This document shows positions 6,824 through 23,063 of a DNA stretch of 23,063 nucleotides, one piece after another. Position 1 is the first letter of the stretch. Each line of letters opens with the position of its first letter. The translations under genes were made by a program, and so were the position numbers. This stretch comes from a virus. Below the pieces are notes generated by a model. It searched no databases, had not been told where the DNA came from, and saw nothing but the letters and a program-made list of their open reading frames with translations. The stretch is from the IMG/VR virus record IMGVR_UViG_3300045970_000678, positions 1 through 23,063 of that record; one strand, given 5' to 3'.

Positions 6824-7192
6824 TCACAAATCTGACTTCAGTAGTTCTGACTTCAATAGTTCTGAGTTCAGTAAATCTGAGTTCAGAAGATCAACTACCA
6901 ACTTCACACACTGATCCGGTTCACTCGTCAATTGTCTCGGGGAAAACCGAAACACGCGCCAGCCCAGACTCGCCGCCAGGTTCAATTTCTCACGGTCTTT
7001 GTCACCAGCGTGCCGGCCGCCGCCCGGGGCCCACTGACCGCCGTCTATTTCTATCGCTATTTTAGCTGTAGGATGCGCCCAGTCAAAACGAAACCGCCGA
7101 GACGCACAGAATTTATACTCTGCTTCTGGCAAATCGCGTTCTGGCGCACACATCACCCAGAAATAGAGCCACCAATCTGATTTATCGTTCAT
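6824..7192 (-). CDS. PD-(D/E)XK-type endonuclease (DUF559/Vsr-like) with repeat-derived tail
   Basis: The 122-residue product has the core RFDWAHPTAKIAIEIDGGQW, a gap, then HAGDKDREKLNLAASLGWRVFRF. This resembles small DUF559/Vsr-like nucleases: an Asp in FDWA, an E-I-D strand, a D-x-x-R helix and a final W-R-V-x-R-F strand. Such phage enzymes may resolve branched DNA or trim ends during packaging; the substrate is inferred only. The last ~20 residues are a five-residue repeat (LLNSE/LLKSE) encoded by AATCTGAGTTCAG-type DNA repeats that also occur outside genes at about 1004-1055. The ribosome site is weak (GCGGAC). Confidence 0.65.
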   Translation of the reverse strand: MNDKSDWWLYFWVMCAPERDLPEAEYKFCASRRFRFDWAHPTAKIAIEIDGGQWAPGGGRHAGDKDREKLNLAASLGWRVFRFSPRQLTSEPDQCVKLVVDLLNSDLLNSELLKSELLKSDL

Positions 7193-7213: not shown

Positions 7214-7251
7214 TATCCGCTCTTATCAGGATAATCAAGTAAATCATGGTC
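7214..7251. repeat. Dispersed late-operon repeat (LLDKS family), copy upstream of nuclease gene
   Basis: ATCCGCTCTTATCAGGATAA, then TCAAGTAAATCATGGTC, is a variant of the family whose consensus on the plus strand is TAATCCGCTCTTATCAAGCA followed by AATCA-N2-TAAATCATGGTC. It lies between the zinc-ribbon gene (7294) and the nuclease gene (start 7192). Confidence 0.8.
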
Positions 7252-7293
7252 TTGGTTCGCTTAATCATAGTTAACTGAACCATGAAATTTAGA

Positions 7294-7530
7294 TCAACAC
7301 CGCCTCGCGGCCGAGTCAAAAGCAGTACTTGTTTCTACCGTTGCATGGCCGTCTAGATCCATCCGCAGCACCGCCCCGCAATCCGGGCACGGAATCGGAA
7401 CGCCAGACGAGACCATAATATTCAGCCGTCCACACCGGCAGAAGACCGTATCAACGTACTTCGCTGACGGCGGCCTGTCCTGTTGGATGCGCTTGCCTTT
7501 CCCGCCCTGGGTGGGATGGCGGCTGCTCAT
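7294..7530 (-). CDS. Zinc-ribbon protein (78 aa)
   Basis: GGAGG lies 7 nt before the ATG at 7530, which overlaps the upstream stop as ATGA. The product has a basic N-terminus (HPTQGGKGKR) and one zinc ribbon, CRCG...CPDCG, about residues 31-52. The last ~11 residues (STAFDSAARRC) are encoded by DNA that recurs elsewhere: 7310-7331 matches 12054-12075 with one mismatch, and 7301-7319 matches about 20715-20733. The C-terminus therefore appears to be made of repeat sequence. It is the last member of the coupled cassette 8994 to 7294. Function unknown; nucleic-acid binding is likely. Confidence 0.65.
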   Translation of the reverse strand: MSSRHPTQGGKGKRIQQDRPPSAKYVDTVFCRCGRLNIMVSSGVPIPCPDCGAVLRMDLDGHATVETSTAFDSAARRC

Positions 7531-10704: not shown

Positions 10705-10778
10705 TCGATTGTAGATTGAAGATTGTAGATTTTAGATTGAAATCCGCTCTTATCAAGCAAATCACGTAAATCATGGTT
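10705..10778. repeat. GATTGTAGATT simple repeat plus one LLDKS-family repeat
   Basis: Positions 10705-10738 hold degenerate GATTGTAGATT(G/T) copies. Positions 10741-10778 hold AATCCGCTCTTATCAAGCAA, then ATCACGTAAATCATGGTT. The second repeat begins within two bases of the TGA of the connector gene. Both lie between the connector and the tail fibre genes. Confidence 0.8.
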
Positions 10779-11227
10779 CAGACCGTTTGCTCGTCTTCGG
10801 GAATGTACCGGTACGGGTCGTTCACCGGTCTTAGCCTCGTCACGCCAATTTCATAGGTCGGCCAGGTCGGGAAACTAACCCACTCCACAGCCAGCCCATA
10901 GGCGCGATCAAGCGACTCTACCGCATTCTTGTAAACGCTCTCACGCTCAAAAACAGAGCCTGTAGAACTGAATTTGTAGTACGTCACCAGGTCATTACAA
11001 GCCTTTTTCCAGGCTTCTACACGCGCCAACGCCCTAACCTTCGGAATGTCCGTACAAAGCGCAATACTGGCAGCCCCGTATTGAATGATGGCCTCATTTA
11101 CGGCTTCCTGGTAGCTGCCAGCATCCAGCGCGCCCACCGCATACGCCAGCAGAGTCGCAACCTTCCCCAGCTCAGCCGCCATAAAATCAGCAAGTTCGTG
11201 CTCAGTGTAACTGGTGGGTACTGGCAT
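10778..11227 (-). CDS. Head-tail connector / adaptor-like protein
   Basis: GGAG lies 8 nt before the ATG at 11227. The 149-residue product is mainly alpha-helical (EHELADFMAAELGKVATLLA, VRALARVEAWKKACNDLVTY), with a C-terminal Pro-rich beta tail (WPTYEIGVTRLRPVNDPYRY). Size, helical content and position downstream of the capsid suit a gp6/gp15-type adaptor that binds the portal ring. No catalytic motif is present. The assignment rests on context and general pattern. Confidence 0.5.
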   Translation of the reverse strand: MPVPTSYTEHELADFMAAELGKVATLLAYAVGALDAGSYQEAVNEAIIQYGAASIALCTDIPKVRALARVEAWKKACNDLVTYYKFSSTGSVFERESVYKNAVESLDRAYGLAVEWVSFPTWPTYEIGVTRLRPVNDPYRYIPEDEQTV

Positions 11228-11228
11228 G

Positions 11229-11552
11229 TTATTTTCTCCGCTTGGCTTGCGCTAATCCGCTCTTTGGCTGGGCGCTCTTGCCTTGCGCTTGAACTTGAAC
11301 TAATCCACTCTTATCAAGCAAATCAGGTAAATCATGGTCGTTTTTCCGGCCAATTTCCTCAAGCAAGGTCTCAAGCAGATCAGCGATCCCTTCGGTTCTG
11401 CGAAGCGCGGCTATCTCAGGGTCGGCGTGTCGGTTACGTATTTCCTCAGCCGCACGCAAAAACCCATACTTCTCGGTAAGTTCAGTCAAAGCCAGTTCAA
11501 TTCTCTGGTTGGCCATGGCCAACTTATAAACCAATGCCGTGCTATCCATCAT
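11229..11552 (-). CDS. Small helical late protein with in-frame repeat insertion
   Basis: GGAGGTG precedes a GTG and two ATGs (11555, 11552, 11549); the ATG at 11552 or 11549 has the best spacing. Residues 1-70 are helical and charged (LTELTEKYGFLRAAEEIRNR, IADLLETLLEEIGRK). DHDLPDLLDKSGL follows, encoded exactly by a copy of the dispersed repeat (11300-11339), then a Gln/Ala/Lys-rich tail (QAQGKSAQPKSGLAQAKRRK). The repeat therefore sits inside the gene in an open frame. The family is not recognised; size and position suggest a small head or neck protein. Confidence 0.6.
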   Translation of the reverse strand: MMDSTALVYKLAMANQRIELALTELTEKYGFLRAAEEIRNRHADPEIAALRRTEGIADLLETLLEEIGRKNDHDLPDLLDKSGLVQVQAQGKSAQPKSGLAQAKRRK

Positions 11553-11570
11553 CACACCTCCGCTCTTGAA

Positions 11571-11710
11571 CTAATCCGCTCTTATCAAGCAAATCAGGTA
11601 AATCATGGTCAGTTCTTGAACTAATCCGCTCTTATCAAGCAAATCAGGTAAATCATGGTCAGTTCTTGACCTAATCCGCTCTTATCAAGCAAATCAGGTA
11701 AATCATGGTC
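11571..11710. repeat. Three tandem copies of the LLDKS-family repeat
   Basis: Copies at 11571-11610, 11621-11660 and 11671-11710 repeat with a 50-bp period. The sequence TGACCTAATCCGCTCTTATC, then AAGCAAATCAGGTAAATCAT, is nearly invariant. The copy next to the holin-like gene supplies that gene's TGA stop (CGA CCA TGA). Confidence 0.95.
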
Positions 11711-11987
11711 GAACCGTCAGCAGATACGCCGCCTGGTTCGCAATGGCAGCACTGATGAACAGATTGACCAATGCCAGGATGCCGGACTTATCACAGGTAA
11801 CCTGGTTCGAATACCCAATACACGAAAGCCCGTATATTGCCAGCGTGACCAGCAGCAGAGCCCCGAGCATAATCAAGCGCTTGAAATCAGGATTAAGCGC
11901 TTCAAACTTACCTTTCAGACCTGGAACGTAGCTAAACGCCAGTGAAAGAACCACCCCCGCCAAAGTTGCCAAAGTTGTATCATTCAT
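11703..11987 (-). CDS. Holin-like membrane protein
   Basis: AAGGTG lies 5 nt before the ATG at 11987. The 94-residue product has three hydrophobic segments: about 6-22 (LATLAGVVLSLAFSYVPGL), 38-58 (LIMLGALLLVTLAIYGL) and 69-91 (ILALVNLFISAAIANQAAYL). Short charged loops separate them (GKFEALNPDFKR, TCDKSG). Size and three-helix layout suit a phage holin, which would open the membrane for lysis, but no lysin is visible nearby. The TGA stop comes from the adjacent repeat, so the C-terminus (LTVRP) may have been set by its insertion. Confidence 0.55.
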   Translation of the reverse strand: MNDTTLATLAGVVLSLAFSYVPGLKGKFEALNPDFKRLIMLGALLLVTLAIYGLSCIGYSNQVTCDKSGILALVNLFISAAIANQAAYLLTVRP

Positions 11988-12013
11988 TTTTCACCTTTTC
12001 CTTTTTACCGATT

Positions 12014-12041
12014 TGTCATCTCGAACGAAGAGAGAGATCTT
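12014..12041. repeat. Dispersed hairpin element, copy 1
   Basis: TGTCATCTCGAACGAAGAGA, then GAGATCTT, is repeated at 14091-14118 with changes. ATCTC/GAGAT here becomes ATTTC/GAAAT there, so both sides of a 5-bp stem changed together. Confidence 0.75.
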
Positions 12042-12082
12042 AACCGCGCACGCGCCGAATCAAAAGCAGTACTTGAAAACTT

Positions 12083-12110
12083 GGGGTGGTGGTCACGACT
12101 CCACCACCCC
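12083..12110. terminator. Strong 10-bp hairpin between capsid and holin-like genes
   Basis: GGGGTGGTGG (12083-12092) pairs perfectly with CCACCACCCC (12101-12110) around an 8-nt loop. On the minus strand a modest AAGTTTTC follows. It may weaken late transcription after the capsid gene, or protect the capsid mRNA 3' end. The rest of 11988-12209 shows no gene. Confidence 0.6.
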
Positions 12111-12209
12111 TTTAGAAATCGCAAGCCGCTCGGTTACCTTCCCTATAAGAACAGTGCCACTTTGCACAGTTGGCCGATATCATAGACACGACTCGCACTT
12201 ACCTTTGAC

Positions 12210-12300
12210 CTAATCCGCTCTTATCAAGCAAATCATGGTCAGCCCTTTGCCCTAATCCGCTCTTATCAAGCAAATCAAGCAAATCAAGGTCAATCAAGGT
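12210..12300. repeat. LLDKS-family repeats after the capsid gene
   Basis: Two degenerate copies (12210-12240 and 12252-12300) start immediately after the TAA of the capsid gene, reading on the minus strand. The second gains extra AATCAAGC units, showing internal expansion of a short motif. Confidence 0.85.
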
Positions 12301-13361
12301 TATGCCATTGGGCTGGTGTAGTTGGTCGGCACAGCATAAGCCGCGTTCCCGATCCGCTGCACCACAGCGCCGACTCGGTTCCAGGCTCCAAAGCCTGCAT
12401 GCCGTTCCCACTGAGACTCGTAGAACGGATGATTATCCCGCTCAGCCGCTCGCTGGAAGCCCTGCAAGCTGGTTTCCGGGTGTTGGCGCATTGCAAGCGG
12501 GGGCTCGCCCTGAGTGCTGGCCATCACAAAATAACCGGCGGGCATTGCCTTCCATTCGCAGATCCATACCTTGTCTACGTAGCCGATCAAAACACCCGGC
12601 AGTTTCACGCCCAGGCTGCCAACCAGCCGGTTGGCGGTGATGGCGGTCTGAATGTTCGGGTCCATGACGGCAACGTAGTTGGTAAGTGCCTGTGTAGTCG
12701 CTACCAGGCTGGTAGAGATCAAAGCCACGGCATCACCCTGGTTCTCGGGGTGCTCCATCAGTTCGGTGTAATCCGCGCCGTAAGGGTTGGTGGCGTCAGC
12801 GATGGCGGCAGCCTGTGCAACAAAGTGCTGGTCAGTCGCGCCTGCATCCGAGCCGTTGATGATCTGGTACACGTCGGTATCAGCGTTCGCAGGTCCCTTT
12901 ATGACCAGACTTCCGTACTGATCGTCAGTAAACGTCCAGTTCGCGTTACTGAACAGCGCAGCCAGTACATGGTCGCGCATCCAGCGCATATCAGCCGCCA
13001 GTAAAGCGCCAGTAGCGTCATTGGCTTCCTGCACGGTCATCTTTTCGCGGACAATGTGAGTCGTGCCCCAGGCAGCCCCGCCGCTTTGCAGCGGAAAGCT
13101 AACGTCATACTTGCCCACGGTCTTAATCGGGCGGGCACGTCCAAATTCATCCAAGCCCTGCAAGCGGGCAGCGGTCGGGGTGCGGTAGGTCACTTTGAAA
13201 TCAGTCACCGGCTTGACCAGCATACCCAGAAGGGACTCAATTTGCCGGTTATGTTCTGCCACGGTCTGTTGAATCGCAGTGCTAACCAGTCCCACACCAA
13301 TTTCACTGACCCGTTTCGCAGCCAGGTCTTTCAAACTTTCAAATCCATAGAGTAAAGCCAT
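12300..13361 (-). CDS. Major capsid protein (HK97-fold-like)
   Basis: AAGGTAAC stands before the ATG at 13361, after a poly-T/A stretch. The 353-residue product has an N-terminal helical region (LKDLAAKRVSEIGVGLVSTA), an extended-loop-like section (about 55-100, FKVTYRTPTAARLQGLDEFG), a long helical spine (EANDATGALLAADMRWMRDH) and a C-terminal domain with VKLPGVLIGYVDKVWICEW. It lies after scaffold and decoration genes in standard head-module order. Length and context suit an HK97-fold shell protein; no protease gene is seen. Confidence 0.8.
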   Translation of the reverse strand: MALLYGFESLKDLAAKRVSEIGVGLVSTAIQQTVAEHNRQIESLLGMLVKPVTDFKVTYRTPTAARLQGLDEFGRARPIKTVGKYDVSFPLQSGGAAWGTTHIVREKMTVQEANDATGALLAADMRWMRDHVLAALFSNANWTFTDDQYGSLVIKGPANADTDVYQIINGSDAGATDQHFVAQAAAIADATNPYGADYTELMEHPENQGDAVALISTSLVATTQALTNYVAVMDPNIQTAITANRLVGSLGVKLPGVLIGYVDKVWICEWKAMPAGYFVMASTQGEPPLAMRQHPETSLQGFQRAAERDNHPFYESQWERHAGFGAWNRVGAVVQRIGNAAYAVPTNYTSPMA

Positions 13362-13412
13362 TTGTTACCTTCCTTTTTTAGTCGTTCTAACTTTGATCTT
13401 GCCTTTGACCTT

Positions 13413-13645
13413 GACCTAATCCGCTCGATTTGCTAAGCAAATCGTCAAGCAAATCAAGCAAATCATGGTCGCTCTTATCAAGCAAATCAAGCAAATCATG
13501 GTCGCTCTTGACCTAATCCGCTCTTATCAAGCAAATCATGGTCGCTCTTGACCTAATCCGCTCTTATCAAGCAAATCATGTAAATCATGGTCGCTCTTAT
13601 CAAGCAAATCAAGCAAATCATGGTCAATCATGGTCAATCATGGTT
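13413..13645. repeat. Expanded array of LLDKS-family repeats
   Basis: About five degenerate copies fill 13413-13645, between the decoration gene stop and the capsid start. Variation lies in the number of AATCAAGCA and AATCATGGTC subunits. One copy contains the near-palindrome CGATTTGCTAAGCAAATCG (13425-13443), which also appears with one extra base inside the portal gene near 15771. Confidence 0.9.
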
Positions 13646-14057
13646 AAAGATCAATGAACAGCAGTTTGGCCAACGCCCCGCCCAGCAGTTCACTATGGCC
13701 AGGCACAACACGACCAATCACAGTGCTAACAGTCCCGGCAGCATCCGCAATCGTCCCATCAGTGTCAGCCAGGTAAAGCGGAGCATCCCAATCCTGGGTG
13801 ACAGTCCAACCATCCAAGACACCCTTGCGGATGACGGTGATAGGCAGCCCAGCGATCACGATATGAGTCCCAACGGCAATGCCGAGGACACGCGCCTCAG
13901 CGGCATCCGTCGCCTTCGCCTTCGAAATCAGACCGGTAGCGGTATCCAGGCGAACCGGCATCCCGGGGGTAATTTGTTCCGCAGCAACACCAGTAAACTG
14001 GATAAGACTTTCAACAACCTCAACCCGTGCAGCAGTGGCCAATACAATAGCAGCCAT
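13644..14057 (-). CDS. Capsid decoration / head-stabilising protein
   Basis: The 137-residue product starts MAAIVLATAARVEVVES and is mostly beta strands with small residues: ITPGMPVRLDTATGLIS, then ARVLGIAVGTHIVIAGLPIT. This pattern and its place between scaffold and capsid genes suit a gpD-like decoration protein that trimerises on the capsid surface. AAGGATGG lies before the ATG. The stop codon is followed directly by the expanded repeat array. Confidence 0.7.
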   Translation of the reverse strand: MAAIVLATAARVEVVESLIQFTGVAAEQITPGMPVRLDTATGLISKAKATDAAEARVLGIAVGTHIVIAGLPITVIRKGVLDGWTVTQDWDAPLYLADTDGTIADAAGTVSTVIGRVVPGHSELLGGALAKLLFIDL

Positions 14058-14090
14058 TTTTTACCATCCTTTTTTTAGTAGTCGTTCGCT

Positions 14091-14118
14091 TGTCATTTCG
14101 AACGAAGAGAGAAATCTT
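14091..14118. repeat. Dispersed hairpin element, copy 2
   Basis: TGTCATTTCGAACGAAGAGA, then GAAATCTT. The stem ATTTC/GAAAT is a compensated variant of the copy at 12014-12041. It lies between the scaffold and decoration genes, next to the LLDKS repeats. Confidence 0.75.
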
Positions 14119-14140
14119 GAACTTGCTCTTGACCTTGTTC

Positions 14141-14250
14141 TTGACCTAATCCGCTCTTATCAAGCAAATCATGGTCAGCTCTTATCAAGCAAATCAAGCA
14201 AATCATGGTCAGCTCTTCTCAAGCAAATCATGTAAATCAAGGTCATGGTC
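14141..14250. repeat. LLDKS-family repeats after the scaffold gene
   Basis: Three degenerate copies start directly after the TGA of the scaffold gene (TGACCATG on the minus strand). Confidence 0.85.
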
Positions 14251-14791
14251 AGAAGTTCGTGTACAACATCCCCTGTCCTCTGCGCGCTGCTTCGAGGTCT
14301 TCCTCGCTCAGGCTGCGCGCCTTCGACTCGGGGCTCGCGGGAATGCCCGCCGACCTGGTTGACTTGCCAAGCTCTTCCCTGTTGGATGCCAGGTACTCGA
14401 TTTGTTCAATCGGGTCCAGTTTTTCCAGCAAAACAAGCACGTGTTTTGGCAGGTCTTTCTTCTCAGTCACCAAGTATTTCTCAAGTGCGCCCTTGTAGCG
14501 CTCCACCTGTTCGCCTAACGGCTCCAGTTCATCCAGCTTCACTAGCAGCTCATTAGCCCGCTTTTCGTGGTTCTGGGCAACCTGCTGCCACGCCTGGTTC
14601 TCTACCAGGCTTTTGGCCTCAGCTTCTTCCTTCGCCTTGGCCGCTGCCTTCTCGCGGGCTGTCTTCTCCCGCTCCAGTCTATCTTTCACGATCCGATCCA
14701 CGTCAGCCTGGGTGAAAGCCTTCTCACCCTGTGCCAGTTCAGGCACCACCGACTCTGTGACCGTTTCCGCTGCCTTCTGTTCGTCTACCAT
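14249..14791 (-). CDS. Capsid scaffold protein
   Basis: AAGGAG lies 8 nt before the ATG at 14791. The 180-residue product is acidic and helical. Residues about 25-46 contain EKAFTQADVDRIVKDRLERE, a hallmark of phage scaffold proteins of the GP20/DUF4355 type. A long coiled coil follows (REKAAAKAKEEAEAKSLVEN, LDELEPLGEQVERYKGALE), and it ends in a typical C-terminal capsid-binding segment with basic residues. It acts during prohead assembly and is lost from the mature head. Position just before decoration and capsid genes agrees. Confidence 0.85.
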   Translation of the reverse strand: MVDEQKAAETVTESVVPELAQGEKAFTQADVDRIVKDRLEREKTAREKAAAKAKEEAEAKSLVENQAWQQVAQNHEKRANELLVKLDELEPLGEQVERYKGALEKYLVTEKKDLPKHVLVLLEKLDPIEQIEYLASNREELGKSTRSAGIPASPESKARSLSEEDLEAARRGQGMLYTNF

Positions 14792-14840
14792 TTTTTCAGC
14801 TCCTTTGCATCCGGTTTTTCCCGTAACCGTGAACGTCTAA

Positions 14841-15653
14841 TTACCAAAAATCGCTCAATGCCTTTCTTGCTTCCTCGGCTTCCATGATACAGCGACCAAC
14901 AAACTCCGCTTGTTGAGGCGTCACGGCATTCCCGAGTCCTTTAAGTCTGTCCACCCGTCCGGGAAACCCATCAACCACTCGACCCACGTTGGGTTCAACT
15001 TCCCATCCACTACCGCATTCAAATTTGGTGAAAACCCGCGTTCCCGGGACGGGCTGCCGTTGCATTTTGAGTCGTTCACCGTCGGCGTCGGATACATCAT
15101 CACGTAACCCGATAAATTCGGATGCTTCCCGCTCTTGTTGGTCTGAAATTTCCAGCGTTCGTTCGTCGTTGCGGTAGGCAATAATAAAGACCCTCTCGCG
15201 GATATGCGGCGCACCAAACGCGGCAGCCGGTACACTCTGCCATTCGACACTATACCCGCCTGCGGCCAGCTCTGCGAGTATTCGACCAAAGAACCGTCCA
15301 GCCTCACTAGACAATATTCCCGGTACATTCTCACCCAGGAACCATAAGGGTTTAATTTCGCCAATAATACGGGCAGTTTCGCCCCATAGGTCGCGCTCGT
15401 CTGCGCTGCCTTTCCGGCTTCCGGCAAGACTGTGGGGCTGACAGGGGAATCCGCCACAAATAAGGTCTGCTGCAGGGAGGTTATGTTTTCCAACATCATG
15501 CACGTCCTTGAATTTTGGCACGTCCGGCCAATGTTTTTTGAGAACCTTCTGGCAGTAGTTATCTTTTTCGACCTGTGCGACACATTCCATGCCGGCGCGT
15601 TCAAGCCCCAGGTCAAGACCACCAATGCCAGAGTAGAGCGAAATAAATTTCAC
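14841..15653 (-). CDS. C5 cytosine DNA methyltransferase (orphan)
   Basis: The GTG start at 15653 overlaps the portal stop (GTGA). The 270-residue product has motif I (SLYSGIGGLDLGLERAG, near residue 5), the catalytic PCQ (GGFPCQPHSLAG, about 68-79), ENV (GENVPGILS), motif VIII (QSVPAAAFGAPHIRERVF) and motif X (LKGLGNAVTPQQAEFVG). The target-recognition region is short. It methylates cytosine in a specific short site that cannot be read from sequence. No restriction partner is present, so the likely use is protecting phage DNA from host restriction. Its insertion between portal and scaffold is a mosaic feature. Confidence 0.9.
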   Translation of the reverse strand: MKFISLYSGIGGLDLGLERAGMECVAQVEKDNYCQKVLKKHWPDVPKFKDVHDVGKHNLPAADLICGGFPCQPHSLAGSRKGSADERDLWGETARIIGEIKPLWFLGENVPGILSSEAGRFFGRILAELAAGGYSVEWQSVPAAAFGAPHIRERVFIIAYRNDERTLEISDQQEREASEFIGLRDDVSDADGERLKMQRQPVPGTRVFTKFECGSGWEVEPNVGRVVDGFPGRVDRLKGLGNAVTPQQAEFVGRCIMEAEEARKALSDFW

Positions 15654-17227
15654 GACAGCCCCGCCTTGCCAATACTTTGCTTCGCCGCCGGCGCTTGCGG
15701 CTCGCCCGCGTTCCGCTCGCCGCTGCTGGCAGCCTGGCTCCCGGCCGGCGATGTCCCGACTTGCTCTTGCCCGATTTGCTTAGCAAATCGTCCGCTCTTA
15801 TCAAGCAAATCACGTAAATCATGGTTCCGATCCCGCTCCATCCGCTCCAACTCCGTTTCCGTCCAACCTCTGCGCCTGGCTGAGGTCACCAGCGGCACGC
15901 CGGCAGATACTTCCATGCTGATCGTCTCCGCTTGCTCCTGCTGGCTGAAGGGAATGACTTCCCGCTCAGCAAAGAGGTGCTCAAAGTCGCCGTGCTCAAA
16001 GTTCCCGATGTCTTTCCACAGCCCAGCCACAGCCCCGATGGTCAGCGCCATCATGTCGGCGCGGATCAGCGCCTGCTCAATGTTGGACCGTGCTTCGATG
16101 GTTCTGTCCACCGCTTGCGAGAGCAGCAGGCGGACAGCCCGCCCGCTGATGCTGCTTCCCAATTCCTTCTGCCGGTAGTACGAAAGCTCCGGCAGGTCTT
16201 CCTCAAGCTCCCGCATCTGTGCGTTCAGAATGTCCAAGTGAGCCTGATAGTTCAGGTTGGCTACCAAGTACTCCATCTTCGAGGTGCCCGGAAAGCTCTT
16301 CACGTCGTCGTCGTGTTCTTCCGCGACTCCCGCTTGCTGGTTGGCCAGCTTTGGCGGCGGCAGCGGCCGGCCGGACGGGTCGTTGCCGTTGGCCATGATC
16401 GCCACGGTGGGGCGGTTGTACCTGAAGATGATCTGATGCAGGCGAGTCGCCATCCGGTTGGCCTCGTCGATCTTGTCCAGCGCCAGGGTGAAGACGCCGA
16501 TGCCGCGTTTCTCGCCCATGTCGATAAAACTCGCGTGGACAAATGGCACGAAGTCGATCCCGAAGGTGGATAAAGAGAGAGAGAGGGAGGGGGGGCCTAA
16601 TTGCTTGACGGGGGAGCCGGCCAAGAGAGTCGATGAGTTGGCGTAGACTCTCAAGCCAAAATCCTTCGACCATATTTCCGTATGGTTTTTCCCGTTGCCG
16701 TTGATGTCAGTTGTCGGGATGTCGAGTCGAATAAACGTGATGTTGCCGCGCTCGTCCGTCTCAAAATCTGTCACCACCTCCGGCTTAATGTTCTGAAGAT
16801 AGACACCCGTCACCTTGCCATCCGAGTCCTGCCGTGTGCACACCTTACAAAACCAGTCACCATACAGCGCGAACCAGCGGGCTGCCAACTGCTTCTTCAC
16901 GCCCCAGTTAGACCACGCCCACACCTTGTGCAGTGGTGTGATGATGCGTTGATTGGCGGTGACGACTGGCAGCGCCTTGTCGATTGAGCCAGGCCAAATG
17001 TGAGTCACGTGAAACTCAACGGTACGTTTGGCAGGGTTGCGTAAAGCCTTCATGCCCGCCGTCCAAATCCCGTTCTCGTACAGCATCTGCTGAGTCGCAT
17101 CGTACAGCCCGTTGTTGAAGTAATACGCCTCCAACATCCGGTAGAAGTCCAACGCCGGCGCATCCGGAGCCTGCAATCCGCTCATCAGCATCGCCCTTGC
17201 CCACTGCATTTGTGGTGTCGTGTTCAT
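15650..17227 (-). CDS. Portal protein with repeat-derived C-terminus
   Basis: The start at 17227 (MNTTPQMQW) is preferred because its ATG overlaps the terminase stop (ATGA) and GGAG lies 9 nt upstream; the ATG at 17242 is the alternative. The 525-residue product has helical N-terminal and stem regions (KLANQQAGVAEEHDDDVKSF, ILNAQMRELEEDLPELSYYR, SYYRQKELGSSISGRA) typical of dodecameric portals. Near residue 470 it carries NHDLRDLLDKSGRFAKQIG, encoded by a copy of the dispersed repeat (15771-15827), then a Ala/Gly/Ser/Gln-rich tail. A (AG)n-G7 tract at 16574-16595 encodes PPSLSLSLS. It forms the packaging channel at one capsid vertex. Confidence 0.8.
   Translation of the reverse strand: MNTTPQMQWARAMLMSGLQAPDAPALDFYRMLEAYYFNNGLYDATQQMLYENGIWTAGMKALRNPAKRTVEFHVTHIWPGSIDKALPVVTANQRIITPLHKVWAWSNWGVKKQLAARWFALYGDWFCKVCTRQDSDGKVTGVYLQNIKPEVVTDFETDERGNITFIRLDIPTTDINGNGKNHTEIWSKDFGLRVYANSSTLLAGSPVKQLGPPSLSLSLSTFGIDFVPFVHASFIDMGEKRGIGVFTLALDKIDEANRMATRLHQIIFRYNRPTVAIMANGNDPSGRPLPPPKLANQQAGVAEEHDDDVKSFPGTSKMEYLVANLNYQAHLDILNAQMRELEEDLPELSYYRQKELGSSISGRAVRLLLSQAVDRTIEARSNIEQALIRADMMALTIGAVAGLWKDIGNFEHGDFEHLFAEREVIPFSQQEQAETISMEVSAGVPLVTSARRRGWTETELERMERDRNHDLRDLLDKSGRFAKQIGQEQVGTSPAGSQAASSGERNAGEPQAPAAKQSIGKAGLS
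15771..15827. repeat. LLDKS-family repeat inside the portal gene
   Basis: CGATTTGCTTAGCAAATCG is followed by TCCGCTCTTATCAAGCAAAT and CACGTAAATCATGGTT, all in an open frame of the portal gene. Translation of the minus strand gives NHDLRDLLDKSGRFAKQIG. Confidence 0.9.
16574..16595. repeat. AG dinucleotide and G7 tract in the portal gene
   Basis: (AG)6 at 16574-16585, then GG-A and seven G at 16589-16595. On the minus strand it encodes a Pro-Pro-(Ser-Leu)n run. Slippage here would shift the portal frame. Confidence 0.8.
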
Positions 17228-18723
17228 CGTGTGTTGCTCCATGTTCTAGCCTGCCAGCCTTCAGCCAGCAGGTGCTCAAGAAATAGTATTGCCTGTGCCA
17301 TAGAGTCGACGGTATCCTTCACCCGTCCAGCCGGGAACTTGTACAACTGGTCTTCAAAGTCCAGCAGCCACGGCACAGACTCAGACGGTTCCGGCAGCAG
17401 TATGCAGCCGCGCTCACACCACAAACTCGCCTGCCTCGCTCGTCCTTCCTTCGAGACCTGCCCAGGCTGGAAGGGAATGAGGAGTTCTGCGATGTTGCGT
17501 GGAGCGGATTGGTCTAATGTCTGCAAGGCAGAGATACCGCTGACCTTATCCTCAACGATGATCCCGCGCAGCTTGCCATCATACATCCAACGCCGCGCCT
17601 CGTCCTGAATCGCACTTGCCAACTGGGGGAACTGCAAGCGCTGCCAGCTAGCAAACCGCAGCCGCAAGCGGTAATCGTCGAGCAATTCCCAGACTGTGAG
17701 GGCTGATGTATCCGCCTGCTCCCGATCCTTGAGGGCAGTATCCCAGCTCATCCAGCGACCCACCACCACACCCTCACGCGCAGAGTACCGGTTCCTACCA
17801 CCTTCCCACCAGGTAACTTGATAAATATTCCCGCCGGCCGGCGCAGGCCGCTGCCCGTGCTGCCCAGCGTATCCACGGAGGCCAAGGTCAGCGTGTGCTG
17901 CAGCGTTTTCTTTCTCCCCGAACCGCTCAGGCCAGAGCAACTCACCGCTGACCTTGCGTGGATCTCCGAGACCAAGCCCCGAGAAATACCGATTCGGTTC
18001 GTATTCGGTTGGCAAGCACAAGTGCTCGTATTGATGCGCGCCGTCTATCTTCATCTTGTCCAGGAGATGACCAGTCAAATCGTTCTCGTGCAGCCGCTGC
18101 ATGATAATCACGCGCCTGACCGTCTTCGGGTCATTGCCTCGCGTGGATACAGTCGAGTCGTAAATGTCGTTGATGCGCTCACGGATGATGTCGCTATCCG
18201 CGTCCTGTGCTTTCAGCGGGTCGTCTACGACAATAATATCGCCGCCCTCGCCAGTGATCGAGCCACCCAGACCAAAGGCCAGACGGTAACCTGTGCGGTC
18301 GTTCTCGTAGCGACTCTTCATGTTCTGATCACCGGTCATCTGAAATACATCTCCGAAACGCTGTTGATACCAGTCTGATTGAATTATGCGCCGGCTTTTC
18401 AGCGCATCCCGCACCGCGAGCGGATCGGCATAAGAACCGGTCAGCCAGCGAACCTCTGGACTGTGAGTCCATGTCCAGGTTGGCCAGAAGACCGAAACTA
18501 ACAAGCTCTTCATGTGCCTGGGTGGGATATTGATAATAAGGTTCTGGATCTGGCCAGCAGTAACCGCGCTCAGGTACTCGCAGATCATGCCAATGTGCCA
18601 GTTATCTACGTATTGCGTCTCAGGCTCCACAACCTGCCAAGCCTTTTTGACGTAATAATAAAAATCCTTGCGGCAGTGCTCAGCCTGAACGGCTGCCAGT
18701 GGTTGGAGTCTGATATTTTTCAA
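17224..18723 (-). CDS. terL: Terminase large subunit
   Basis: The TTG start at 18723 is chosen for GGAGG 6 nt upstream; another TTG at 18744 has no ribosome site. The product is 499 residues. Walker A is INIPPRHMKS (about 65-74), Walker B is GDIIVVDDP (about 161-169). The RNase H-like nuclease domain has SWDTALKD (Asp near 328), IIVEDKVSG (near 391) and DTVDSMAQA (near 475). It is the ATP-driven packaging motor that cuts concatemeric DNA and docks on the portal. It overlaps the small terminase by 44 bp and the portal by 4 bp, so the order is small, large, portal. Confidence 0.95.
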   Translation of the reverse strand: MKNIRLQPLAAVQAEHCRKDFYYYVKKAWQVVEPETQYVDNWHIGMICEYLSAVTAGQIQNLIINIPPRHMKSLLVSVFWPTWTWTHSPEVRWLTGSYADPLAVRDALKSRRIIQSDWYQQRFGDVFQMTGDQNMKSRYENDRTGYRLAFGLGGSITGEGGDIIVVDDPLKAQDADSDIIRERINDIYDSTVSTRGNDPKTVRRVIIMQRLHENDLTGHLLDKMKIDGAHQYEHLCLPTEYEPNRYFSGLGLGDPRKVSGELLWPERFGEKENAAAHADLGLRGYAGQHGQRPAPAGGNIYQVTWWEGGRNRYSAREGVVVGRWMSWDTALKDREQADTSALTVWELLDDYRLRLRFASWQRLQFPQLASAIQDEARRWMYDGKLRGIIVEDKVSGISALQTLDQSAPRNIAELLIPFQPGQVSKEGRARQASLWCERGCILLPEPSESVPWLLDFEDQLYKFPAGRVKDTVDSMAQAILFLEHLLAEGWQARTWSNTR

Positions 18724-19385: not shown

Positions 19386-20042
19386 TTAAACCTTGCGGTT
19401 CATAAATTCCGCTACAAGTTCTTCGGTGGTCTTTTTCACCGGTTCAGTCTCTATCGCCTGCCAGTCCTTGAGTCTGTGGATAGCCAAGCCGATCTTTTCC
19501 TGAGGCCTTTTCAGACCTTTTACATGCGCAGTAATCAGCGCAGGAGTCATCCAATCGCCCGTCTCCGGGTGCCTGGAATTGGCGATCTGAGTCGCGCTTG
19601 GGTCACCAATCCCGAGTCGTTTTGCCGTGTGTAAACACTCGTCAAAACTCGGATTTTGCGCCAGATGTACATTTAACGTACATCTGGTCCCTAATAATAA
19701 TGATTCATTAACTCTATTAATATCAATTAAAGGTTGATCATTATTATTAAGTTCTTTAGACCCACAGATGTACATTTTTTGTACATCTGGATTTTCAAAC
19801 AGCAATTTCTGACCACCCGATCCCATCGCAATATACTGCTCGCCATGGTCACGAACACTTACCGAACAGATATCGAGACCTTCAAATCCGAGTGTGCGAA
19901 ACGCTTCATAAAGCGTTCTGCGATCGTACTTTGCCAGGTGACAGAGTTCAGTGAGACTCAATTGCCTCCGCTCAATCACGAGGATGAGCAAGACCAAAGC
20001 AGGCGCACCGCGAACCGTGCGATAGAAAGAAAGGTTGTTCAT
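19386..20042 (-). CDS. Winged-helix DNA-binding protein with origin-like DNA in the gene
   Basis: The start overlaps the upstream stop (ATGA at 20042-20039). The 218-residue product has an N-terminal winged helix (about 25-75: QLSLTELCHLAKYDRRTLYE, then SVRDHGEQYIAM). The middle part (about 85-125) is low-complexity and is encoded by an AT-rich segment with two long inverted repeats (19661-19790). The C-terminal part contains TGDWMTPALITAHVKGLKRP. A DNA-binding N-terminus with origin-like repeats within the gene recalls the lambda O arrangement, so a replication initiator is possible. A repressor is the main alternative. No polymerase, helicase or primase motif is seen. Confidence 0.6.
   Translation of the reverse strand: MNNLSFYRTVRGAPALVLLILVIERRQLSLTELCHLAKYDRRTLYEAFRTLGFEGLDICSVSVRDHGEQYIAMGSGGQKLLFENPDVQKMYICGSKELNNNDQPLIDINRVNESLLLGTRCTLNVHLAQNPSFDECLHTAKRLGIGDPSATQIANSRHPETGDWMTPALITAHVKGLKRPQEKIGLAIHRLKDWQAIETEPVKKTTEELVAEFMNRKV
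19661..19790. other. Origin-like inverted-repeat and AT-rich locus
   Basis: Two copies of CCAGATGTAC-N7-GTACATCTGG lie at 19661-19687 (10-bp arms) and 19765-19790 (9-bp left arm). Between them is an AT-rich segment with nested AATAATAATGA (19693-19703) and TCATTATTATT (19738-19748). All of it is within the coding frame of the winged-helix gene. Confidence 0.75.
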
Positions 20043-20686
20043 GGCTTATATTTTCCAGCCGTCATTGGGCTGCAGCCAACCGCCGCCGCGCAATCTCGCA
20101 GGCTTGCGCTCGGGTTGGCTTGCCAGAAGGCCTCTATCGCAGCGATCAAGGCCGGGTCGACTACGAATTGAGTAGATTGTCTACCGGTCTGTCCAACGGT
20201 CTGTCCACCGGTGGACAGTTTCAAACCACGGTTTCTGGAGTTGGAAAGCAGCCGCTCAGCTTCCAGCACCGCTATTTTATTGTCCGTTTCAGTCTGCGCA
20301 TCCTTAATGATCGATCGAAGATCAGTGAGCATTGCGACGGCAACATAGGCCATAACACTGATGATGATCGTGCTGACCATCGAGACAGGGTTTTTAGCAG
20401 ACGATATACCCACCGCCATGAATGCCGCATAGACCACAAACGCGACCATGGCCACCATCATCAGCCCGTATTTCTGCTTACGGTAGGCCTGCACACCCAC
20501 GTAAGCCGCAATCATGCCGGAGGCTTCCGCCCCAACGCCTGAAAGCACAGCCGCCCCGATCGCAACGCCGCTGTTTACCGACTCCCGCAGCAAGTCAACG
20601 TAAAGGATGTTGATTAACATCGTCGCCGGGGCTGCTGGGGCGGCAATGGGGGCGATAATTGAAAGTATCTCGTATTTATCCATCAT
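20039..20686 (-). CDS. Four-pass membrane protein with C-terminal HTH
   Basis: GGAGAG stands 6 nt before the ATG at 20686. The 215-residue product has hydrophobic segments at about 8-28, 38-62, 74-95 and 100-123 (SMVSTIIISVMAYVAVAML). A charged helix follows (SIIKDAQTETDNKIAVLEAE), then a Gln/Thr/Gly linker (STGGQTVGQTGRQST). Residues 175-215 look like a helix-turn-helix (DPALIAAIEAFWQANPSASL, then RDCAAAVGCSPMTAGKYKP). A membrane-held DNA-binding protein could sense the envelope, tether phage DNA or control lysogeny. Its stop is coupled to the winged-helix gene. Confidence 0.65.
   Translation of the reverse strand: MMDKYEILSIIAPIAAPAAPATMLINILYVDLLRESVNSGVAIGAAVLSGVGAEASGMIAAYVGVQAYRKQKYGLMMVAMVAFVVYAAFMAVGISSAKNPVSMVSTIIISVMAYVAVAMLTDLRSIIKDAQTETDNKIAVLEAERLLSNSRNRGLKLSTGGQTVGQTGRQSTQFVVDPALIAAIEAFWQANPSASLRDCAAAVGCSPMTAGKYKP
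20201..20218. repeat. 18-bp perfect palindrome in the membrane-HTH gene
   Basis: CTGTCCACCGGTGGACAG is perfectly palindromic. Directly to its left are two related half-copies, GTCTACCGGT and CTGTCCAACGGT. The repeats encode the Gly/Gln/Thr linker of the membrane-HTH protein. A binding site is possible. Confidence 0.7.
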
Positions 20687-20793
20687 TATTTGCTCTCCTA
20701 GTTTCAGTCACGACCGCCTCGCGGCCGAGTCAACACCACAGTTCACACCCCCCCTCCGCTATTGGGCTGGGCTGGGCTTGGGTTTACCCGTGT

Positions 20794-22913: not shown

Positions 22914-23063
22914 TCTTCCACTGGAAGGGGTTCCGGTTGAGTTTGTCTGCCCAGCCGCTTTACGTTCAATTCATTCGTGGCGCGGCTGGGTAAACCAGGC
23001 TCTTCCACTGGAAGGGGTTCGATTGAGTTTGTCTGCCCAGCCGCTTTACGTTCAATTCATTCG
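22914..23063. repeat. 86-bp tandem repeat array, right end
   Basis: A partial, slightly diverged unit (22914-22981) is followed by a unit starting at 22982 and running to the window end, four bases short of completion. It is the same repeat as 1-292. Confidence 0.95.

Follow-up and report, generated by a model that had tools for sequence, protein, structure and literature searches.

How a short repeat comes to follow the stop codons of several late genes of a phage, and to be read in frame within two others, is the question raised by IMG/VR virus record IMGVR_UViG_3300045970_000678, a sequence of 23,063 bp from an uncultured phage in a single metagenome assembly. The record was analyzed over its whole length and is termed the window. 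The minus strand of the window carries a late operon with genes for terminase, portal, C5-methyltransferase, scaffold-like, decoration-like, major capsid, holin-like, small, connector-like and tail proteins, where the names scaffold, decoration, holin and connector were assigned by position or in the initial annotation and have no database matches behind them. The initial annotation described some fifteen copies of a ~40-bp repeat and overlooked that the unit is a hairpin. The results reported here favor, with a probability of about 0.45, a phage-private hairpin repeat similar to the repetitive extragenic palindromic (REP) elements of bacteria that was amplified along the late operon and probably acts on late mRNA.

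Placement and folding of the repeat

The core of the repeat, GATTTGCTTGATAAGAGC, was found in 16 copies on the minus (gene) strand and in none on the plus strand (≤3 mismatches), while 0.01 copies were expected per shuffled sequence. All copies lie between 7219 and 15811, consistent with the reported confinement to 7.2-15.8 kb. They form eight clusters, five at stop codons, two in frame within genes and one degenerate and farther off; 14 of the 16 copies are extragenic or merely overlap a stop codon and two lie within open reading frames (ORFs). The arrays begin 0-1 nt after the stops of the scaffold (14249), decoration (13644), major capsid (12300), holin-like (11703) and connector (10778) genes, and one copy supplies the TGA of the holin-like gene as had been claimed. 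The reported abutment to stop codons therefore holds for these five genes, which represent five of the six intergenic clusters, and fails for the degenerate copy at 7219-7251 located ~40 nt after its gene. All six operon spacers longer than 49 nt contain the repeat and none of the nine shorter junctions do. The probability of exact abutment by chance was ~3e-7 under a model of uniform insertion points in the residual spacers, the placement statistics treating clusters as independent.

The 38-nt short form of the unit, TTGACCATGATTTGCTTGATAAGAGCGGATTAGGTCAA, is an imperfect palindrome, and the consensus ends in inverted termini (TTGACC..GGTCAA). The message strand was predicted to fold into a 15-bp stem with one bulged A and the loop GAUAA at -17.4 kcal/mol (z -6.0), compared to -7.4 kcal/mol (z -2.8) for the complement. 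The weaker fold of the complement is explained by the four imperfect pairs among the 15 of the stem, each of which is G.U on the mRNA side. The long form of the unit, with an extra ~10 nt, re-pairs into a 13-bp stem. The predicted energies of nine well-preserved copies with the right arm were -9 to -17 kcal/mol on the mRNA strand versus -1 to -8 on the opposite strand. The spacer between the decoration and capsid genes folded at -94.4 kcal/mol on the message strand (z -7.1; opposite strand z -3.9), and the site following the capsid gene, where the repeat is the hairpin, at -19.6 kcal/mol (z -3.6; opposite strand z +0.3). No Rfam family matched at the gathering threshold.

Of the three frames of the unit, one stops at once (TGACCATGA), another stops after ~12 codons and the third stays open (HDLxDLLDKSG), as a consequence of which the unit either ends a gene cleanly or passes through it in one frame only. 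Tandem periods of 50, 40, 33-34 and 9 nt are present in the arrays, together with internal tandem words of 9, 10 and 12 nt. The copies in the portal gene and after the connector gene, although 5 kb apart, share 37 identical nucleotides (GAACCATGATTTACGTGATTTGCTTGATAAGAGCGGA), including a variant (GAACC..ACG) found nowhere else. In a further frame, every full copy (for example 11672-11707 of the minus strand) contains an 11-codon mini-ORF, ATGATTTACCTGATTTGCTTGATAAGAGCGGATTAG, with the ATG a few bases after the upstream stop. The mini-ORF could serve re-initiation across the spacer; no ribosome-binding site was seen for it.

Copies within proteins and repeats of related phages

The two in-gene copies were confirmed to lie in an open frame, the portal copy as NHDLRDLLDKSG and that of ORF 11229-11555 with the reading DHDLPDLLDKSGL. 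The closest relative with a full portal, contig L034 (60-64%), reads ..KDKQ-AQQDQEQV.. where the window reads ..RDRNHDLRDLLDKSGRFAKQIGQEQV.., a net in-frame gain of 14 residues in the window. The peptide is missing from the portals of L034 and 13 aligned relatives. In a structure model of the window portal, the insertion is in the terminal helix that is followed by a disordered tail with a predicted local distance difference test (pLDDT) score of 33-46 from about residue 491. The small protein encoded after the capsid gene has a conserved N-terminal part and a tail that differs in every relative and is often basic at the end. The window copy is within this tail, with the basic end AKRRK retained. 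Tandem tails unrelated to one another were observed in the orthologs of L034 (11119-11634; DEPTGEPEGE) and contig L049 (11119-11685; AKAEAK and a duplicated PAPDMTIEDFDKATGQEPPAEVE). A palindrome resembling that directly downstream of the portal copy (CGATTTGCTAAGCAAATCG) is at ~13425-13443. The proposal that the element is tolerated at gene 3' ends is in agreement with these results, to which is added tolerance in frame in flexible tails, as in the portal, whose L034 counterpart lacks the 14 residues.

Queries with capsid and tail proteins identified ~30 distinct related contigs, some of them fragments, while a portal-based query for relatives returned no matches. The repeat was missing from 31 full records of related phages (≤2 mismatches). 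The exact 19-mer and right-arm 17-mer of the unit gave nothing or isolated single matches among IMG/VR contigs, and a scan of 84,980 species genomes for the exact 20-mer gave one isolated, chance-like match; none of these scans pointed to a host. By these sequence searches, which may have missed near-identical records, the repeat is private to this phage. A family-wide repeat is thereby rejected, and a lineage-private repeat survives because two relatives, contigs L016 and L054, carry unrelated repeats of their own at like sites.

In L016, the closest capsid relative (69%), the repeat TACCCAAGTTCGGGCACGATG occupies five sites, all with the same orientation, and has no match in other IMG/VR contigs. 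The ortholog of ORF 11229-11555 contains two of these copies in frame, and one of the two is an insertion that the window version lacks. L054 contains the hairpin CGYTGRGTACARCG in 17 copies, none reversed, and the stem is altered on both sides between copies (CGCTG..CAGCG, CGTTG..CAACG). One L054 array begins at the base after a TAG, and in-frame copies are near the C-termini of two ORFs of the terminase region and in the portal as a four-residue insertion. Thus, three families of unrelated sequence occupy the same types of site (after stops and, in frame, in C-terminal tails or the portal) in one orientation. The L016 unit folds weakly as a whole, so that only the window and L054 offer firm support for the hairpin part of this parallel.

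Folding downstream of late genes was also evaluated in the relatives. The 60 nt after the capsid stop of 28 relatives had a mean z of -2.0 with 46% below -2, versus -0.43 and 11% for coding controls (p = 1e-4), and most of these hairpins have no U-tract. No excess over the control was found after the scaffold, decoration or connector genes of relatives. The coincidence of the window repeat with the post-capsid site suggests, although it does not prove, that the repeat replaced or grew from a useful capsid-mRNA hairpin. The initial annotation offered a role in late mRNA as one of two possibilities, and both the strand-specific folding of the unit and the hairpins found after the capsid genes of relatives support it.

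Origin and role of the repeat

The favored explanation envisions a repeat family that arose recently in this lineage, possibly from a hairpin next to the capsid stop, and was amplified through tandem duplications and copying between loci. Copies would survive where genes stay whole, either in the one open frame of tolerant tails or after stops, the latter since the unit, in two of its three frames, starts with a stop or soon reaches one. The hairpins would then stand in late mRNA just beyond the terminating ribosome, and may be 3' barriers that stabilize or punctuate the messages of virion genes, that for capsid above all. Several results weigh against this explanation. About six of the 16 copies have no right arm and are unable to form a hairpin alone, and the degenerate copy at 7.2 kb folds better on the opposite strand. 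Four wobble pairs out of four on the message side is expected by chance at about 1 in 16 and traces to one founder, which is suggestive at most. The hairpins of relatives are found only after the capsid gene, so that most window copies have no counterpart. The L016 repeat has a z of 0.7 as a whole unit, making the hairpin unequally clear across the three phages, and single orientation could result from local copying instead of selection. A wider proposal, that each lineage of the group evolves its own short palindromic repeat in a self-renewing, transposase-free and REP-like manner, which colonizes stop codons and tails in message orientation, giving virion-gene mRNA hairpins and incidentally peptide tails, is less likely than not.

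A close rival, nearly as plausible, is that the repeat is a neutral by-product in which slippage and template switching amplify palindromic words, the hairpins are useless, and purifying selection alone determines where copies are found. Palindromes are known substrates for template switching, and the internal tandem words, the different repeat of each phage, the unrelated tandem repeats in the small-protein tails of several relatives and the persistence of partial copies with no hairpin are all as expected for such a process. The privacy of the repeat and the internal slippage are explained equally well by a neutral origin and by a role in mRNA. A neutral origin accounts less well for abutment to stops more exact than free insertion into spacers predicts, for the one orientation in all three phages, and for strand-specific folding together with the L054 arm changes that preserve the stem.

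Less probable is a host origin, in which a chromosomal repeat similar to REPs or miniature inverted-repeat transposable elements (MITEs) entered the phage and was mobilized in trans by a host transposase. Short palindromic REPs frequently lie just after stop codons (PMC12306157), and the window and L054 share forms of another, widespread-looking element, TTCGYTTCGY..ATGACA. The lone chance-like match to the 20-mer among species genomes weighs against such an origin. No Y1/RAYT transposase gene was found in the window, PF01797 having no match in the record, although the host may carry a copy. No target-site duplication was seen at the repeat copies, as judged without the empty site of a near-identical phage. 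It is very unlikely that the repeats are intrinsic transcription terminators between late genes, an idea suggested by hairpins after the stops of probably highly expressed genes, since no U-tract follows the repeat hairpins, a terminator scan found no terminator-like site at any copy, and terminators that follow a gene by only a few bases are repressed nearly completely (PMC4824070). Equally implausible is a functional role for the peptide motif HDLxDLLDKSG, with the portal C-terminus as the source of the DNA copies: LL(D/E)..FD.GQ occurs there in several relatives and some portals end LLDKFDKGQ or LLEAQRKFDQG, resembling DLLDKSGRFAKQIGQ, but L034 lacks the 14 residues and has LLEAERRRDQNQ farther downstream, most copies are not read in that frame, and the DNA unit runs on into non-coding right arms.

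Among known systems, REPs and the bacterial interspersed mosaic elements (BIMEs) of enterobacteria are in some cases within 15 nt after a stop codon, can stall ribosomes and are linked to mRNA stability (PMC12306157). The window repeat is similar in length (38 nt versus 20-40 nt for REPs), imperfect palindromy, many copies, mostly extragenic location and a predicted RNA hairpin. It is unlike them in being phage-borne, restricted to one lineage, sometimes in frame and without a RAYT or Rfam match; moreover, REP/BIME units often alternate in orientation whereas 16 of 16 copies are on one strand here. The start-associated and extended start-associated sequences (SAS/ESAS) of cluster K mycobacteriophages are phage-specific short repeats in 11-19 copies, nearly all in one orientation and some with inverted repeats (PMC3203893). 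They share with the window repeat phage specificity, one orientation and a fixed place relative to genes; however, SAS are found at start codons of largely non-structural genes, and the window repeat follows the stop codons of virion genes or lies in frame. Rickettsia palindromic elements (RPEs) are ~150-bp families mostly inserted in ORFs (PMC10969869). Although these too are palindromic repeats tolerated in frame within unrelated genes, as in the portal and ORF 11229-11555, the kinship originally suggested was not upheld: RPEs are ~100-150 bp and mostly intragenic, whereas the unit here is ~38 nt, mostly after stops and outside ORFs (two of 16 copies within), and no shared sequence was shown. 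Small dispersed repeats and short tandemly repeated repetitive (STRR) sequences of cyanobacteria, and the 12-bp elements of rudiviruses, are likewise very small and dispersed, some spreading without a gene of their own; to our knowledge, none has been tied to stop codons or message orientation.

Other features of the window and significance

Table 1. Copies of the repeat and associated genes in the window.
Feature	Position	Strand	Evidence or comparison
Single degenerate copy, ~40 nt after ORF 7294-7530	7219..7251	-	
Single copy immediately after connector stop TGA (10778-10780)	10744..10780	-	
Small post-capsid protein ORF	11229..11555	-	N-terminal part conserved; tail hypervariable, basic-ending
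In-frame copy DHDLPDLLDKSGLVQ in variable tail of small post-capsid protein	11294..11340	-	Orthologs have unrelated repeat tails
Three tandem 50-nt copies, holin-like TGA (CCATGA) within the first	11564..11711	-	
Two-copy array from major capsid stop TAA, provides post-capsid hairpin	12207..12302	-	
Major capsid protein gene	12300..13361	-	PHROG 3990, 4e-25
Array of about five copies from decoration-protein stop TAA (13644-13646)	13408..13646	-	
Three-copy array, first bases TGACCATGA are the scaffold stop codon (TGA, first three bases of the copy)	14140..14251	-	
Portal gene with in-frame repeat copy	15650..17242	-	phrog_533 (weak match), alignment, structure model
Perfect palindrome CGATTTGCTAAGCAAATCG, in frame (RFAKQI), directly downstream of portal copy	15772..15790	-	
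In-frame portal copy NHDLRDLLDKSG	15791..15826	-	Missing from L034 portal and 13 aligned relatives

Other repeats are also present in the window. A second family with a 15-nt unit (TCTGAACTCAGATTT..) is at 6831-6894 and, at the opposite genome end, at 1009-1045, and forms the in-frame tail LLNSDLLNSELLKSELLKSDL, up to the stop codon, of a DUF559-like protein. A third dispersed repeat (AAGTACTGCTTTTGAYTCGGC..) is at 7291-7331, 12035-12075 and 20705-20745; it encodes the tail STAFDSAARRC and stop of ORF 7294-7530, and is also found between the capsid and holin-like genes and upstream of ORF 20039-20686. Forms of TTCGYTTCGY..ATGACA are at 12016-12045 and 14094-14120 of the window and at 127, 2590 and 9768 of L054, where one of them provides the terminal codons and stop of the terminase nuclease ORF. 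An 86-bp tandem repeat occupies both window ends (1-340 and 22914-23063), with 82 bp identical between the ends; circularity of the genome is possible, in which case the assembly was interrupted inside this array. A 130-bp duplication at a palindrome in contig L037, compared to the otherwise identical L036 and L038, resembled an expansion in progress and was not used since a tandem at a contig palindrome is more likely an assembly error.

The C5 cytosine methyltransferase gene (14841-15653) is flanked by the portal and scaffold genes. The large terminase is a single gene in the window and is apparently split into ATPase and nuclease ORFs in many relatives, namely L054 (857-1810 and 1812-2597), L049, L051, L056, L059, L060 and L061. 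The nuclease half of L054 ends DSSLRSE, an end that together with the stop is encoded by another element, GATTCTTCGCTTCGCTCAGAATGACA.

Compact phage operons offer little room for insertion, yet a hairpin unit multiplied after many late virion genes of this phage and entered two of the proteins. Should the hairpins act on late mRNA, REP-like 3' elements can be created afresh by phages and propagated fast. If they have no effect on mRNA, the window shows with little ambiguity how short palindromes multiply and are absorbed by reading frames. Either way, the origin of palindromic repeats becomes testable in small genomes.

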